A stretch of DNA of 28,008 nucleotides from Phycisphaerae bacterium. GTDB taxonomy: Bacteria; Planctomycetota; Phycisphaerae; UBA1845. The translations under genes were made by a program, and so were the position numbers. Of this stretch, positions 8,532 through 13,783 are shown in pieces. The notes under the pieces were generated by a model. That model worked only from the letters and a program-made list of their open reading frames with translations. It did not search any database and was not told the origin of the DNA. Where the stretch lies: assembly GCA_021604825.1 (NCBI GenBank), contig BQJS01000038.1, positions 1 to 28,008 on the forward strand, in the 5' to 3' direction. Each line of letters begins with the position of its first letter. Within the stretch, counting starts at the first letter, position 1.

Positions 8532-9836
8532 TCAATCCGGAATTTGGCGGCCATGAGGATCCTCACCCAGATCCCCCATTTCCTTTTTGAGCTGCTCGCT
8601 GAGGTCGTCGCTGATGTAATGCTCGACGCGCTCCGCCGGTTCGTGAAGGTGATCAAGCGGCAGGTCAAAGTGGGTGGCCATGTACCCTTCCCAGAGGCGA
8701 TGGTCGCGCACGAGTTTGGTAGCCGCGTCGCGGCCCGTGTCGCTGAGACGGATTCGATCGGCACCGACAGTTTCGACCGCCCGGCGACGTTGCAGCGCGG
8801 CAAGGGCGAATCGCGCAATGGTCCCGCGCCCCACTGCTTTCATAAGGTCATCCTTGAGAATATCTTCGTCGGGCCGGTGTTCGCCCCATCGATAAAGAAT
8901 CCCCAGCATGTCCTCGCGAACGATCTGAATGGTGAGTCGAGCGCGGTGATACCATTTCCCGACAAGCCCATACCGAGGCGCAAAGATCAACGCCAATAGA
9001 AAGATGGCCCCCGTCATCACTGCAATCATCGACGCCGTTTCGATCGAAACCGATGGGTCCAGTCCCAACCAGTACGGCCCTCGAAACGCGAAGACGTGTC
9101 CGAGAATTGCGGACATCGCCGAAATGAATGCCGCAAGCATCAACGTGATTCCCAGTCGATCCGACAGCAATCGCGCCGTCGCCGGCGGAACGATCAGCAT
9201 GGCAATCACTAGAATTGATCCCACAGCCTCGAAGCTGGCCACCGTCGTCACGGCCACGACGATCATCAAAAGATAATGCATCAAATTTGCATTGATCCCC
9301 AAGGTTGTTGCGAGTTGCGGATCGAAAGCGCAGATCTTCAATTCTTTGAACAGGACGCATACGAAAACGATGTTTAACAACAATGCGATCGCAACGTTCA
9401 CGACGGCTGGCGGTATGCCTCCATCAAGCGCATCAAGCGGAATCTGGGAAAGGTTGCCGTAAAGCACGCAGCCAGGATCGAGATCCACGTGGTCAGCGGC
9501 CTGGCGGATAAGCACCAGCCCCAGCGCGAACAGAATACTAAACACCACCCCCATCGCCGCCCCGGTTTCGACCTTCCCGTAGCGGGTAATGATTTGCGTC
9601 CCGACAGCGGTCAACACGCCAACGACCACAGCGCCGGCGAACATCGGAATGACTCCGCGACTGTGGGTGACAAGAAACGCAATGGCCAACCCGGGCAAGA
9701 CCGCGTGGGAGATGGCGTCGCCCATCAGACTCATCTTACGCAGGACCAGGAATGTTCCGGGAAGGGCGCACGCCACTGCCGCGAAGACGCCTGCCGCGAT
9801 GATCCAACCGTCAATGGCCCAATCCCATTCCATCAT
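8532..9836 (-). CDS. Metal ABC transporter permease (ZnuB/TroD family) fused to a C-terminal DtxR/MntR-like domain
   Basis: Second permease of the divalent-metal importer. Residues 1-295 form the multi-helix ABC-3 permease with family motifs: FLVLRKMSLMGDAISHAVLP near the N-terminus, and ASFEAVGSILVIAMLIVPPA followed by TARLLSDRL. From about residue 307 the sequence becomes soluble and resembles a DtxR-family repressor: a winged-helix region (MLGILYRWGEH to RRRAVETVGADRIRLSDTG), then the metal-binding and dimerisation helix DHRLWEGYM with His379. Next is AERVEHYIS, with Glu402, Glu405 and His406. These correspond to the MntR ligands His77, Glu99, Glu102 and His103. The Asp8/Glu11 pair is only half kept (D-M-L-G). 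The ATG start overlaps the preceding permease stop by four bases (ATGA). The fusion resembles chlamydial YtgCR. Whether the domain binds DNA or only senses metal is unknown. Confidence 0.93.
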   Translation of the reverse strand: MMEWDWAIDGWIIAAGVFAAVACALPGTFLVLRKMSLMGDAISHAVLPGLAIAFLVTHSRGVIPMFAGAVVVGVLTAVGTQIITRYGKVETGAAMGVVFSILFALGLVLIRQAADHVDLDPGCVLYGNLSQIPLDALDGGIPPAVVNVAIALLLNIVFVCVLFKELKICAFDPQLATTLGINANLMHYLLMIVVAVTTVASFEAVGSILVIAMLIVPPATARLLSDRLGITLMLAAFISAMSAILGHVFAFRGPYWLGLDPSVSIETASMIAVMTGAIFLLALIFAPRYGLVGKWYHRARLTIQIVREDMLGILYRWGEHRPDEDILKDDLMKAVGRGTIARFALAALQRRRAVETVGADRIRLSDTGRDAATKLVRDHRLWEGYMATHFDLPLDHLHEPAERVEHYISDDLSEQLKKEMGDLGEDPHGRQIPD

Positions 9837-11305
9837 GGTTTGACCCCCGAGGCGATTGGCCCATCGTCGTCGTGCGGCGACGGTGGAATCTCCTGGCCCG
9901 CTTCCAGCGCTTTTTCAAGTTCGTCGATTAGCTCTTCTGATAGGACGTGCTCAATTTCATCGGCATCGCGATCCACGTGTGACGGGGCGATGTCGGCGTG
10001 CTCGATCAAATAGGTTTCCCAGAGGCGGTGGTTGCGCAAGACGCGTCGGGCGTGGGTACGACCGAGCTTGGTCAATTCGAGTTCGGCCCAACTCTTTCGA
10101 GTAATGAACCCCGCACCTTTCGCGCGAATGGCCAACCGCCGCAAATCGTGCATCACCCAACTTCGCATCGTCAGTAAGTCGTTGGTATCGACTTGAGTTG
10201 GCTCACCGGTGCGCTCTTCGATTTCAGCCATCGCCCGAAGCAGATGTTGAAGTGCGATGCGACGACGCAACCTGATTCGTCGAAACGCGCCCGCCAACAT
10301 CCCCCGTCGAAAAGCAAACACCATACTTAGAAGGAACAGAACGCCCGCCGTCAAGACGATGATCGCGCCAGTCGGCATCTTGGGAAGCAGCGCGCTAAAC
10401 GACGCCCCCAGCCATCCACTGACCGCACCGATCCCGCCCGCAAGCACCGTCATCACCTTGAGATCATCGGTCCAGAAACGAGCGGCGGCGGCTGGGATGA
10501 TCAAAAGCGCGACGATCAAGATTAGCCCAACTGCCTGCAAACCGATGACCGTCGTCAGAACAACAAAACCCATCATGAGCAGGTCGATCGCCACCACGCT
10601 TCGCCCCATCGACGCAGCGAAATCCTGGTCAAAGCAGACGATGCGAAATTCCTTGAACATCGCGATGGTTCCGACGACCACGATGAATGCGGCGATTCCG
10701 ATCATCCAGGCGTCGCCACGCACCATCGATGCCGCTTTACCGTAGATGAACTGATTCAGCCCAGCCGCGTTGCCATTTGAAGTCGATTGAACCACGCTCA
10801 TCAAGGCCATGCCTGCGCCGAAGAAAACGCTTAGGACAATTCCGATCGCCGCGTCCTCTCGAATGCGCGAAGACTGACGGATGGCCAACACCGCAAGCAC
10901 ACCGAGTACGCCGGTGACCGTGGCTCCCAGCAGCAAGTAGGTGAGGTTTTTTTCGCCGGTGAACAAGAACGCCAAGGCGACACCGGGTAGGGTCGCGTGA
11001 CTCAGCGCATCACCCATTAACGCCCGCCGACGAAGGTACGCGAACGTCCCCACCAACCCTGCCGCCAATCCGAGGAGTGTCGTTCCGAGAACCACGATGC
11101 GCGTGTTGTGATCGCGCAGGAGTGCCACGCGTAGAATATTCTCCCACGTCGGCCAATCGAATCGGGTATCGGTAATTGTGCGATGCGAAGACGGTGCGCT
11201 CTGTCCGAATGCTTGATCGGTTGCGAAGCAGATCACGCCGAGCATTAATATGCCCATCAGGATCGTTGAAGTGGATCGCGCCGTTGATCGCATATGTTGA
11301 CTCAC
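9833..11305 (-). CDS. Metal ABC transporter permease (ZnuB/TroC family) fused to a C-terminal DtxR/MntR-like domain
   Basis: First permease of the importer, 490 residues. The N-terminus has a hydrophobic signal-like segment (ILMGILMLGVICFATDQAFG), then the ABC-3 permease core with FAYLRRRALMGDALSHATLP and VIGLQAVGLILIVALLIIPA. After about residue 347 comes a soluble domain: a winged-helix-like region (RIALQHLLRAMAEIEER to AELELTKLGRTHARRV), then RNHRLWETYLIEH with His426. Next is DADEIEHVLSEELIDELEKA with Asp449, Glu452 and His453, matching MntR positions 77, 99, 102 and 103 with Asp for Glu at 99. The Asp8/Glu11 ligands of MntR are not evident. A short Pro/Asp-rich tail ends the protein. The GTG start at 11305 overlaps the ATPase stop (GTGA); an ATG at 11293 is an alternative. 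Confidence 0.92.
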   Translation of the reverse strand: MSQHMRSTARSTSTILMGILMLGVICFATDQAFGQSAPSSHRTITDTRFDWPTWENILRVALLRDHNTRIVVLGTTLLGLAAGLVGTFAYLRRRALMGDALSHATLPGVALAFLFTGEKNLTYLLLGATVTGVLGVLAVLAIRQSSRIREDAAIGIVLSVFFGAGMALMSVVQSTSNGNAAGLNQFIYGKAASMVRGDAWMIGIAAFIVVVGTIAMFKEFRIVCFDQDFAASMGRSVVAIDLLMMGFVVLTTVIGLQAVGLILIVALLIIPAAAARFWTDDLKVMTVLAGGIGAVSGWLGASFSALLPKMPTGAIIVLTAGVLFLLSMVFAFRRGMLAGAFRRIRLRRRIALQHLLRAMAEIEERTGEPTQVDTNDLLTMRSWVMHDLRRLAIRAKGAGFITRKSWAELELTKLGRTHARRVLRNHRLWETYLIEHADIAPSHVDRDADEIEHVLSEELIDELEKALEAGQEIPPSPHDDDGPIASGVKP

Positions 11306-12111
11306 CCGTTTCGGGCGATGGCTTCAGCCGCTTCGGTCAGCAGGGTCAGTCGTCCGCCATATGTTTTCTGTAGGTTTTCTTCTGTAAATACCGAGGATGT
11401 TGGACCGGCAGCGACGATTCGCATGTTCAAGAGTAGCACCTCGTCGAAATATTCCGGGACGGATTGCAGATCGTGATGCACGACCAACACCGTGCGCCCG
11501 CGTTCCCGTAGCTCGCGAAGTAGCGTGACGATGGCGGCTTCCGTTGCGGCATCGACTCCCGCGAATGGCTCGTCCATGAAATAGACCCGTGCGTCTTGCA
11601 CCAGCGCCCGCGCGAGAAATACGCGCTGCTGCTGACCGCCCGAAAGTTTGCTAATCTGTCGGTTTGCAAAGTCGCCCATCCCGACTTGTTCGAGGGCGTG
11701 GCGGGCTGCATCTTTGTCTGATTTTCCCGGAGGAACGCACCAGGGGATGCGGCCATACCGCCCCATCGTGACGACATCGAGGGCGCTCGCGGGAAAATCC
11801 CAATCGACACTTTCGCGTTGAGGGACGTATCCAACGACGTTGCGCTGTTCCTTGTAATTCTTGCCGTAGATCCGAACGCTGCCCGACGCCCTGGGCACAA
11901 GGTCGAGACATGCTTTGATCAACGTGCTTTTGCCCGCACCGTTCGGTCCGACGATACCCACGAGTTTGCCCTGCGGCGCGGCGTAGTCGATGTCCCACAG
12001 CACCGGCTTGCGGTCATACGCCACCGTCATGTCGTGGATTGAAAGCGGCGCATCGTCGTCGTGATGGACTTCATCAAATTGAAACTTGGGATGCGCTTCG
12101 GAAGGTGCCAA
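11302..12111 (-). CDS. Metal ABC transporter ATP-binding protein, TTG start
   Basis: Cytoplasmic ATPase that powers divalent-metal import (ZnuC/TroB/MntB type). It has 269 residues from the chosen start. All nucleotide-binding motifs are intact: Walker A GPNGAGKST, Q-loop VPQRE, signature LSGGQQQR, Walker B VYFMDEP and the H-loop histidine in VVHHD. The family segment ESVDWDFPASALDVVTMGRYG is characteristic of Mn/Zn/Fe importers of this class. The open frame continues upstream into the binding-protein gene but has no ATG there. The TTG at 12111-12109 has GGAG seven bases upstream and lies 23 bases after the previous stop, so I take it as the start. Its stop overlaps the first permease start by four bases (GTGA). 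Confidence 0.93.
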   Translation of the reverse strand: MAPSEAHPKFQFDEVHHDDDAPLSIHDMTVAYDRKPVLWDIDYAAPQGKLVGIVGPNGAGKSTLIKACLDLVPRASGSVRIYGKNYKEQRNVVGYVPQRESVDWDFPASALDVVTMGRYGRIPWCVPPGKSDKDAARHALEQVGMGDFANRQISKLSGGQQQRVFLARALVQDARVYFMDEPFAGVDAATEAAIVTLLRELRERGRTVLVVHHDLQSVPEYFDEVLLLNMRIVAAGPTSSVFTEENLQKTYGGRLTLLTEAAEAIARNG

Positions 12112-12134: not shown

Positions 12135-13118
12135 TTACTTGGAACTTGAAAGCTTCCCTCGTATGCCGTTGGCCGGTGCGTCTCCGCCCAATGCTCGGGT
12201 GATCGTCGTGATATTGTGATCGAGCATGCCTACGTACGTCCCTTCGTAGGTGCCGGATTCGCCCATCGCGTCGGAAAACAGAGTTCCGCCGATCGACACT
12301 TTGTGGTTGCGGGCTTTGGCACCTTCGAGGAGTGCTTTGATGTTCTTGTCCGAAACGGACGTCTCGACAAAGACGGCTTTGATGCCGCGCTGACAAATCA
12401 TTTCGACGATTTTGTTGATGTCGGCGATACCGGCTTCCGACTCGGTGCTGATGCCTTGAATGCCGCGCACTTCCAGCCCGTATGCCTTGGCAAAATAATT
12501 AAATGCGTCGTGAGCAGTCACAAGAATTCGATGATCTTCGGGGATCGTCGCTATGCACTTTTTGGCGTACGCATCGAGGCGATCGAGTTCTGCGGCGTAG
12601 GCTTCGTAGTTTTTCTGATAATACGACGCGTTCGGCGGGTCGAATTCACTGAGCGTTTGCATCACCATTTCGGTGCATTGCTTCCACAGGTCCACGTTCA
12701 TCCACACGTGCGGATCGGAATGGCCGGCAAACTCCGGCGGCTCGAGCAATAACTTCGGGTCGATCAATTCCGTCACGGCATAGACCGGGCGACGACGCCC
12801 CACCCGAACAAAGGCGTCCCCCATCTTGCCTTCAAGCATGAGTCCGCTGTAGAAAATGATGTCGCTCTTAATCAGACGAGCAACGTCGTTGCGCGTGGCG
12901 CTATATAGATGCGGGTCGATACCAGCACCGATGATGCTGCTCACCTTGCCCTTATCGCCAGCGATCTGTTGAACGATGTCAGCCACCATTCCCGTTGTAC
13001 AAGTCACGGAATACGGATATTGCGTCGGGGCTTTGGCGGTCTCCGCGCAAGCCACTGACGAGACGCCGCCCATTAAGAGCATCGCCCAGACCAGCGTCGA
13101 AACCTTTCTGCGATTCAT
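12135..13118 (-). CDS. Periplasmic metal-binding protein of Mn/Zn ABC transporter (TroA/ZnuA family)
   Basis: Solute-binding lipoprotein-like or periplasmic protein that delivers Mn(II), Zn(II) or Fe(II) to the permeases. It has 327 residues from the ATG at 13118, which has AGGGAG eight bases upstream; longer in-frame starts exist but lack such a site. Residues 1-25 form a signal peptide (LVWAMLLMGGVSSVACAE). The cluster A-I metal ligands are recognisable: His70 in GIDPHLYSA, His137 in SDPHVWMN, His203 in VTAHDAFNYFAKAYG and Asp283 in GGTLFSDAMG. The third ligand is His, as in TroA, ZnuA and chlamydial YtgA; PsaA-type Mn proteins have Glu there. There is no His-rich loop of the ZnuA kind. First gene of the transporter operon, divergent from mntR. 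Confidence 0.94.
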   Translation of the reverse strand: MNRRKVSTLVWAMLLMGGVSSVACAETAKAPTQYPYSVTCTTGMVADIVQQIAGDKGKVSSIIGAGIDPHLYSATRNDVARLIKSDIIFYSGLMLEGKMGDAFVRVGRRRPVYAVTELIDPKLLLEPPEFAGHSDPHVWMNVDLWKQCTEMVMQTLSEFDPPNASYYQKNYEAYAAELDRLDAYAKKCIATIPEDHRILVTAHDAFNYFAKAYGLEVRGIQGISTESEAGIADINKIVEMICQRGIKAVFVETSVSDKNIKALLEGAKARNHKVSIGGTLFSDAMGESGTYEGTYVGMLDHNITTITRALGGDAPANGIRGKLSSSK

Positions 13119-13162
13119 CCGTGGCACTCCCTGAAAAGTCATCAACCGATTATGCCGATGTA

Positions 13163-13192
13163 TTGACATAGTTACAGAATATTGCCTATGCT
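13163..13192 (+). promoter_or_regulatory. Predicted mntR promoter
   Basis: TTGACA (13163-13168, perfect -35 consensus), an 18-base spacer, then TATGCT (13187-13192) as -10. Transcription would start near 13200, giving an untranslated leader of about 138 bases before the mntR ATG. The -10 lies inside the palindrome at 13178-13197. Prediction only. Confidence 0.5.
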
Positions 13193-13197
13193 ATATT
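13178..13197. promoter_or_regulatory. Candidate MntR operator palindrome
   Basis: AATATTGCCTATGCTATATT is an imperfect 20-bp palindrome: 8 of 10 base pairs are symmetric (AATAT-x-GC / TA / x-GC-x-ATATT with two mismatched pairs). Its size and AT-rich arms fit DtxR/MntR-family operators. It covers the -10 element of both divergent promoters, so a bound repressor would block the repressor gene and the transporter operon together. A second, weaker 19-bp palindrome (GCATAATGCCGTATCATGC, 13231-13249; 7 of 9 pairs) lies in the mntR leader. Confidence 0.55.
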
Positions 13198-13336: not shown

Positions 13337-13783
13337 ATGGGCAAGTCAGAATCAAAAACCGGCAGTGCGGCCAGCACAGTCGTCGCCAAGACCCGCTTTG
13401 CGCGGATTCGCAATGACCATGCGAAAGAGCTAGCCGAAGACTATTTGGAAATGATCGACGATCTTTCGGCCACCAATGGAGAGGCCCGCGCGGTGGATAT
13501 TGCTGCCCAGCTCGGCGTGAGCCATGTAACCGTCACGAAAACCGTCGCTCGATTAAAGCGCGACGGGCTGGTGACGTCCCAACCGTACCGCTCAATCTTT
13601 TTGACGCCCAAGGGCAAGCGCATCGCCGACAATGCCCGCCGCCGTCATCAGACCGTACTACAATTTCTGCTCGCTTTGGGCGTGCCAGCCGACTCGGCTG
13701 AAATCGATGCGGAAGGCATCGAGCATCATATCAGTCCTGCAACCTTGCGGGCGATGCGCGACTTCACTGAGAAGAATGCATAG
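13337..13783 (+). CDS. mntR: Manganese-responsive transcriptional repressor MntR (DtxR family)
   Basis: Metal-sensing winged-helix repressor, 148 residues. It resembles the proteobacterial MntR type in having an N-terminal arm of about 30 residues before the DNA-binding domain. All six MntR metal ligands can be placed: Asp35 and Glu38 (AEDYLEMI), His104 (RRHQTVLQFLL), Glu126, Glu129 and His130 (DAEGIEHHIS). Asp at the first position, with no Cys ligand, favours Mn(II) sensing over Fe(II). The recognition helix is in RAVDIAAQLGVSHVTVTKTV (residues 51-70) and the wing in PYRSIFLTPKG. There is no SH3-like third domain. The ATG at 13337 is preceded by GGAAA. It is divergent from the transporter operon, sharing a 218-base control region with a candidate operator. 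Confidence 0.93.
   Translation: MGKSESKTGSAASTVVAKTRFARIRNDHAKELAEDYLEMIDDLSATNGEARAVDIAAQLGVSHVTVTKTVARLKRDGLVTSQPYRSIFLTPKGKRIADNARRRHQTVLQFLLALGVPADSAEIDAEGIEHHISPATLRAMRDFTEKNA

Follow-up and report, generated by a model that had tools for sequence, protein, structure and literature searches.

Organisation of the locus

The stretch of DNA analysed in this study (the window: 28,008 nt from a Phycisphaerae bacterium of UBA1845, GCA_021604825.1, contig BQJS01000038.1, positions 1-28,008) carries on its reverse strand two adjacent permease genes, P1 (8532..9836, −, 434 aa) and P2 (9833..11305, −, 490 aa), which share 4 bases where the P2 stop meets the P1 start. Pfam places an ABC-3 transmembrane domain at residues 13-285 of P1 (8982..9800, −; E 5.7e-49) and 69-330 of P2 (10316..11101, −; E 4.3e-62) and, within the same frame of each gene, a DtxR-like metal domain in a C-terminal tail. 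Alongside lie the genes for the importer ABC ATPase (11302..12048, −, start codon provisional) and for a ZnuA-type periplasmic metal-binding protein (12135..13169, −; Pfam E 6.3e-78), and the permeases, ATPase and binding protein together identify, by their Pfam domains, an ABC-3 importer of the ZnuABC/MntABC type. A separate MntR repressor, with its DNA-binding and metal domains intact, is encoded on the other strand (13337..13783, +).

The 167-base gap ahead of the MntR gene contains an imperfect palindrome read from the sequence, AATATTGCCTATGCTATATT (13178..13197, no strand assigned), a candidate MntR operator which resembles the E. coli MntR box. This palindrome is mostly retained in two relatives (L001 and L002) and has a similar counterpart in L005 and L008; it was not seen in the aligned stretches of L003, L004 and L007, and a repeat search with a 12-base minimum did not return it. 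With this MntR-box-like palindrome ahead of the MntR gene, repression could be the work of the stand-alone MntR.

The first half of the P1 tail (residues 300-363; 8748..8939, −) holds a helix 1 with a conserved Asp309, followed by a winged-helix scaffold whose sequence and length drift across relatives, while the second half (residues 364-434; 8535..8747, −; PF02742, 1.7e-20) is a metal-binding/dimerisation domain that carries H379, E383, H398, E402, E405 and H406 and ends in DPHGxxIP. The P2 tail is built in the same order, with Gln353-His354 in helix 1 and a drifting winged-helix scaffold in its first half (residues 345-410; 10076..10273, −), and H426, E430, D445, D449, E452 and H453 in its metal-binding second half (residues 411-478; 9872..10075, −; PF02742, 2.1e-17). 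Single-chain AlphaFold models predict a winged-helix fold in both tails and, with the second halves, the two-domain DtxR/MntR fold. In these models, helix 1 begins about 5 residues past the last transmembrane helix in P1 and P2, and there is therefore no long linker to cut. In DtxR, helix 1 moves on metal binding.

The first-pass annotation of this DNA had claimed that both permeases end in DtxR-fold tails and that a stand-alone MntR is encoded beside them. Both claims hold, the former through PF02742 matches over the Pfam cut-off in both tails and through the predicted fold, which still includes the winged helix. The profile search that it proposed gave a divided answer, since the metal domain was found and the DNA-binding domain PF01325 matched neither window tail at E<=1. 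A chance motif match is ruled out by the Pfam E-values.

Recurrence of the double fusion

A scan of GTDB contigs returned at least 559 relatives, of which the best 80 were fetched; by title they are mostly Planctomycetota MAGs, with some Latescibacterota, Gemmatimonadetes and Kiritimatiellae. The search used patterns from P1, one of them inside its tail, and so favours tailed P1, which was present in 80/80 loci as this bias would have it. The P1 proteins of L001 (titled Phycisphaerae) and L002 are 85% and 83% identical to that of the window; the L002 record is titled Alphaproteobacteria and is probably a mislabelled bin. A P2-type permease occurs in 70 of the 80 loci and is tailed in 68 of the 70, the exceptions being L030 and a contig-end fragment in L057 (these locus counts include a P2 fragment in L039 that fell below the filter for the P2 set). 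The ten other loci have a tailed P1 with the P2 permease absent from the fetched stretch, some of the contigs being short. In L018, however, no P2 permease was found although there are 7 kb on each side, and in L012 a P2-like tail lies where the contig ends, the P2 permease itself not being found. The pairing of two tails is uncertain in these ten loci because the P2 permease was not found there. A separate regulator lies inside the fetched stretch in 39/80 loci, and 37 of these were used below.

Of 118 genomes sampled from the phylum of L001, 67 have a PF02742 match and 103 an ABC-3 match. By eye, among the matches listed, 30 tandem ABC-3 pairs could be recognised, and the commonest layout was PF02742 in both permeases (15 pairs, counting G032 although its reported frames differ), followed by the upstream permease only (6), the downstream only (5) and neither (4); weak matches are missing from the listing on which this reading is based. 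In the phylum of G006, scanned for PF02742 only, 53 of 56 genomes have the domain and at least 25 have two long-frame matches in tandem; among these genomes are G005 and G007, whose loci carry the titles Latescibacterota or Latescibacteria. The double fusion is not peculiar to the window locus. A frameshift or assembly artefact is ruled out, as independent relatives have the identical fused gene arrangement.

That both partners are tailed in 68/70 loci could also be expected if the tails were a metal-dependent module for assembly or stability, which would bring P1 and P2 together or make the importer susceptible to proteolysis, with no gating of the transport cycle. The 4-base gene overlap, which suggests coupled output, and the Pfam description of the second DtxR domain as a dimerisation domain agree with such a module. 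Nevertheless, mere pairing needs no seven conserved ligand positions and a tail-less ABC-3 pair exists (L097, from G088), so that we regard this explanation as unlikely, if still worth serious attention.

Ligand positions in the tails

We aligned 78 P1 tails (77 of the 80 loci and the window; L058, L059 and L063 were omitted as near-copies) and 66 P2 tails (65 of 69 references and the window; omitted were the near-copies L059 and L063, the contig-end fragment L057 and L030). The P2 of L030, which has no tail, counts as a case against a sensor role and stands outside the alignment. PF02742 matches 78/78 P1 and 63/66 P2 tails (E<=0.01). In the metal half, the P1 numbering is that of DtxR plus 300, and the ligand positions follow those of DtxR and MntR. 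On that basis, the P1 tails retain H379, H398, E405 and H406 in 78/78, E383 in 77/78, D309 in 71/78 and E402 in 50/78, and the segment D426-P427-H428-G429-x-x-I432-P433 is almost invariant among the 78. The P2 tails have D445 in 64/66, E430 in 61/66, D449 and E452 each in 60/66, H453 in 59/66, H426 in 58/66 and H354 in 47/66 (Asn in 13). Where DtxR has Met10, His98 and Cys102, the P2 residues are His, Asp and Asp.

When D, E, H, C, M, N and Q are allowed, all seven ligand positions are filled in 71/78 P1 and 56/66 P2 tails, and the four positions of the primary metal site in 71/78 and 59/66, respectively. With the strict set D, E, H, C and M, the four primary positions are filled in 68/78 P1 and 47/66 P2 tails and the seven in 67/78 P1 and only 44/66 P2, the last pair of counts weighing against a sensor role. 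The ligand positions have a mean of 3.97 (P1) and 3.67 (P2) bits, compared with a tail mean of 2.11, and when seven tail positions were drawn at random 20000 times, the ligand mean was reached once in P1 and never in P2. As judged from these alignments, the metal ligands of the tails are conserved and not decaying. The first-pass annotation had described the helix-1 ligands as lost in one tail and half-lost in the other; instead they are mostly kept, as Asp309 in P1 and with His354 in place of Asp in the 47 P2 tails. Asp/Glu ligands go with Mn2+ and, because P1 has such ligands, its sequence suggests Mn2+ rather than Fe2+.

The sets of conserved ligands on the cytoplasmic side of the importer would also suit a metal buffer or hand-over site, where the tails would capture the ion on entry and transfer it onward. 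We consider this very improbable, since a buffer would seem to need neither a complete repressor-like fold nor a helix 1 conserved on the membrane side.

A tree was built from 74 of 86 metal-domain rows (P1 24/26, P2 20/22, MntR 13/20, DtxR 17/18), the 12 other rows being dropped because the motif filter failed to excise their domain. It places the P2 domains together (98% support) and the MntR domains together (88%); the P1 group is unsupported, and two changes are required for the DtxR group.

Drift of the DNA-binding half

For comparison, we used 38 separate regulators, namely 37 of 42 matches and the MntR of the window; second matches in L056, L058, L059, L063 and L068 were omitted, and two others, those of L067 and L078, had already been excluded by a length filter. 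They were located through similarity to the window MntR or to the tails, which favours intact regulators, and PF01325 and PF02742 are both present in 38/38. At E<=0.01, PF01325 is found in 1/78 P1 and 0/66 P2 tails, as against 38/38 separate regulators. Profiles built from the regulators agree: at E<=0.001, the metal-half profile matches 78/78 P1 and 57/66 P2 tails, and the DNA-half profile 1/78 P1 (L042) and 1/66 P2 (L040). From the latter profile, the single PF01325-positive P1 tail is probably that of L042. The L042 P1 and L040 P2 tails still resemble the DtxR DNA half, and we count them against a sensor role.

The two halves also differ in sequence identity. Among pairs whose metal halves are 60-70% identical, the DNA halves have a mean identity of 22% in P1 and 19% in P2, 63% in MntR-type regulators and 46% in DtxR-type regulators. 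Expressed as the ratio of DNA-half to metal-half pair identity, this is 0.35 (P1), 0.34 (P2) and 0.96 for MntR-type regulators (0.94 with a second column set), the DtxR-type regulators, at 0.68, being the harder control. The DNA-contact positions of DtxR, 37, 39, 40, 42 and 43 (P39G and Q43A are named in PDB titles), have equivalents that average 1.14 bits in P1 and 1.04 in P2; the separate regulators have 3.41 bits (20 MntR-type) and 3.28 (18 DtxR-type). The DNA half is 43 aa long in 38/38 regulators, and 27-78 aa in P1 and 30-58 aa in P2. In the tails it is basic, with a mean net charge of +2.7 (P1) and +3.5 (P2) versus +2.0 and +1.8 in the regulators. Contact with DNA, RNA or lipid is possible for such a basic region, and its positive charge might serve in the binding of lipid or of the ATPase. 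This split, in which strongly conserved metal-ligand positions stand beside a DNA-binding half that drifts in both sequence and length, is the new point here.

Chlamydia YtgCR is the precedent for reading the fusion as a repressor: a 28 kDa repressor is released from it and binds DNA (PMC5599777, PMC7755916). As YtgR binds DNA (PMC5599777, PMC7755916, PMC6504234), the presence of a fusion is not enough to assign a function; a review has suggested the idea of a cleaved repressor for fusions in 11 phyla (PMC5599777). Applied to our loci, this would mean that released tails repress the importer genes with or beside MntR. The domain order is identical to that of YtgCR, a winged-helix fold is still predicted in the tails and the region is basic. 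Against this, the DNA-binding signature is missing from 143/144 tails and present in 38/38 separate regulators, the DNA-contact equivalents are unconserved and the region varies in length. Moreover, PF01325 is available elsewhere in the genome: it is found at E<=0.001 in 35/35 fused-permease genomes, and in 34 of these, all but G079, a match passes the cut-off; among the matches listed for these genomes none lies in a frame with a listed ABC-3 match. Cleaved repressors are therefore, in our judgement, an improbable account of these tails. The suspicion raised by the first-pass annotation, that these tails differ from ordinary DNA-binding repressors, is supported by the absence of PF01325 from the window tails and its near absence from those of the relatives. 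Its interpretation thus stands as regards the DtxR-fold tails, the separate MntR and the non-repressor idea, and fails as regards ligand decay.

A proposed sensor on the permeases

Based on these results, we infer that the tails act on the importer and not on DNA, because features of a metal sensor have been kept and the marks of a DtxR repressor lost. Our working model, in which belief and doubt are evenly balanced, is that both tails are exapted DtxR/MntR modules serving as cytoplasmic metal sensors that throttle the importer, while MntR handles transcription; metal binding, tail pairing and gating are the conjectural parts of this model. Imported Mn2+ (or Fe2+) would bind between the metal domain and helix 1, which comes shortly after the last transmembrane helix; beneath the transporter, the tail of P1 would pair with that of P2 in the manner of DtxR subunits; and the metal-bound tails would pull on or lock the permeases, so that import is slowed when metal is abundant (trans-inhibition). 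Transcriptional control would be left to the separate MntR.

The tails resemble DtxR, MntR, IdeR and SloR in predicted fold, in the primary and ancillary metal-ligand positions and, in P1, in the DPHGxxIP segment, and differ from them in being membrane-tethered with an unconserved DNA half. In YtgCR too, a permease of the ABC-3 type and a DtxR-like domain at its C-terminus are encoded by a single gene, within a metal importer of four components. Unlike YtgCR as described, in which only one of the two permeases, YtgC, is fused, both permeases are fused here, the tails nearly always lack the DtxR DNA-binding signature and there is a separate MntR.

MetNI and ModABC, whose regulatory domain is not known to be DtxR-like, offer a likeness in working: a cytoplasmic regulatory domain reads the substrate and stops import, as we propose here. 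In those transporters trans-inhibition comes from a sensor domain on the ATPase (PMC10710835), whereas here the domain is on the permeases and not on the nucleotide-binding subunit, which lowers the case for membership of the same class and leaves the likeness in working unaffected. OpuA is an ABC importer in which a basic, membrane-near helix-turn-helix acts as a sensor and not as a DNA reader (PMC10710835); unlike the tails, its motif is on the ATPase, is not DtxR-like and modulates the response to osmotic change. The same 2023 review of transporter regulation describes ATPase-borne trans-inhibition and makes no mention of DtxR (PMC10710835). In the open-licence PMC literature, we recognised no description of DtxR tails on both ABC-3 permeases, or of such tails as gates.

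Our data suggest that, among the relatives analysed (mostly Planctomycetota and Latescibacterota), the YtgCR architecture is a transporter sensor in which DNA reading has been abandoned. The wider proposal, that an entire class of "permease-repressor fusions" in these two phyla are paired metal-operated gates, derived from DtxR on both halves of an ABC importer, which close import from the cytoplasm and are not repressors, is plausible at somewhat short of an even chance. If true, it would provide a clear example of a transcription factor turned transporter gate, that is, a trans-inhibition domain made from a transcription factor and borne by permeases, and it would add a fast, protein-level layer to manganese/iron control.

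Other fusion layouts and related proteins

Twenty stretches from the sampled genomes, with tails judged by eye, illustrate further layouts. In six (L081-L086), the upstream permease has a winged helix and a metal domain, whereas the tail of its downstream partner is winged-helix-like only; the four downstream proteins scanned gave weak helix-turn-helix Pfam matches, none over the cut-off. Three (L098-L100) have a winged-helix-like tail on the downstream permease only, and the two scanned with Pfam gave one weak match and none. The downstream tails of these nine lack the metal domain, and several have a common FGW motif. Five (L092-L096) have one permease with a winged helix, a metal domain and an extra C-terminal piece, making three DtxR-type parts; among the three scanned, a FeoA match was found in L094 only (E 0.0019, under the cut-off). 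The tails of another five (L087-L091) have degraded ligands, and the last, L097, is the ABC-3 pair without tails mentioned above. The degraded ligands in L087-L091 and the 4/30 tandem pairs without PF02742 imply that the sensor is dispensable.

Such tails, with degraded ligands (L087-L091) or with a winged helix alone (L081-L086 and L098-L100), are what would be expected of relics, fusion tails that persist by inertia and are functionless at present. For the tails as a whole, such an explanation is barely credible given the strong ligand conservation over 78 and 66 diverse sequences.

Two related proteins were also observed. Read by eye, the 337-aa protein at L102:119-1132 (−), noted along with L109:2768-4429 (−), comprises a membrane helix at the N-terminus, a DtxR-like winged helix and metal domain and two FeoA-like repeats; it adjoins a separate DtxR-like gene, with a FeoB-like gene close by, and a frame of 346-376 aa with a strong PF02742 match occurs in 12 genomes from the same phylum sample. 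It may be another membrane-tethered DtxR, in this case on the uptake of ferrous iron. Finally, a 309-aa ORF at L103:427-1356 (+) consists of two MntR-like units head to tail, with two PF02742 matches, and is perhaps a single-chain MntR dimer.
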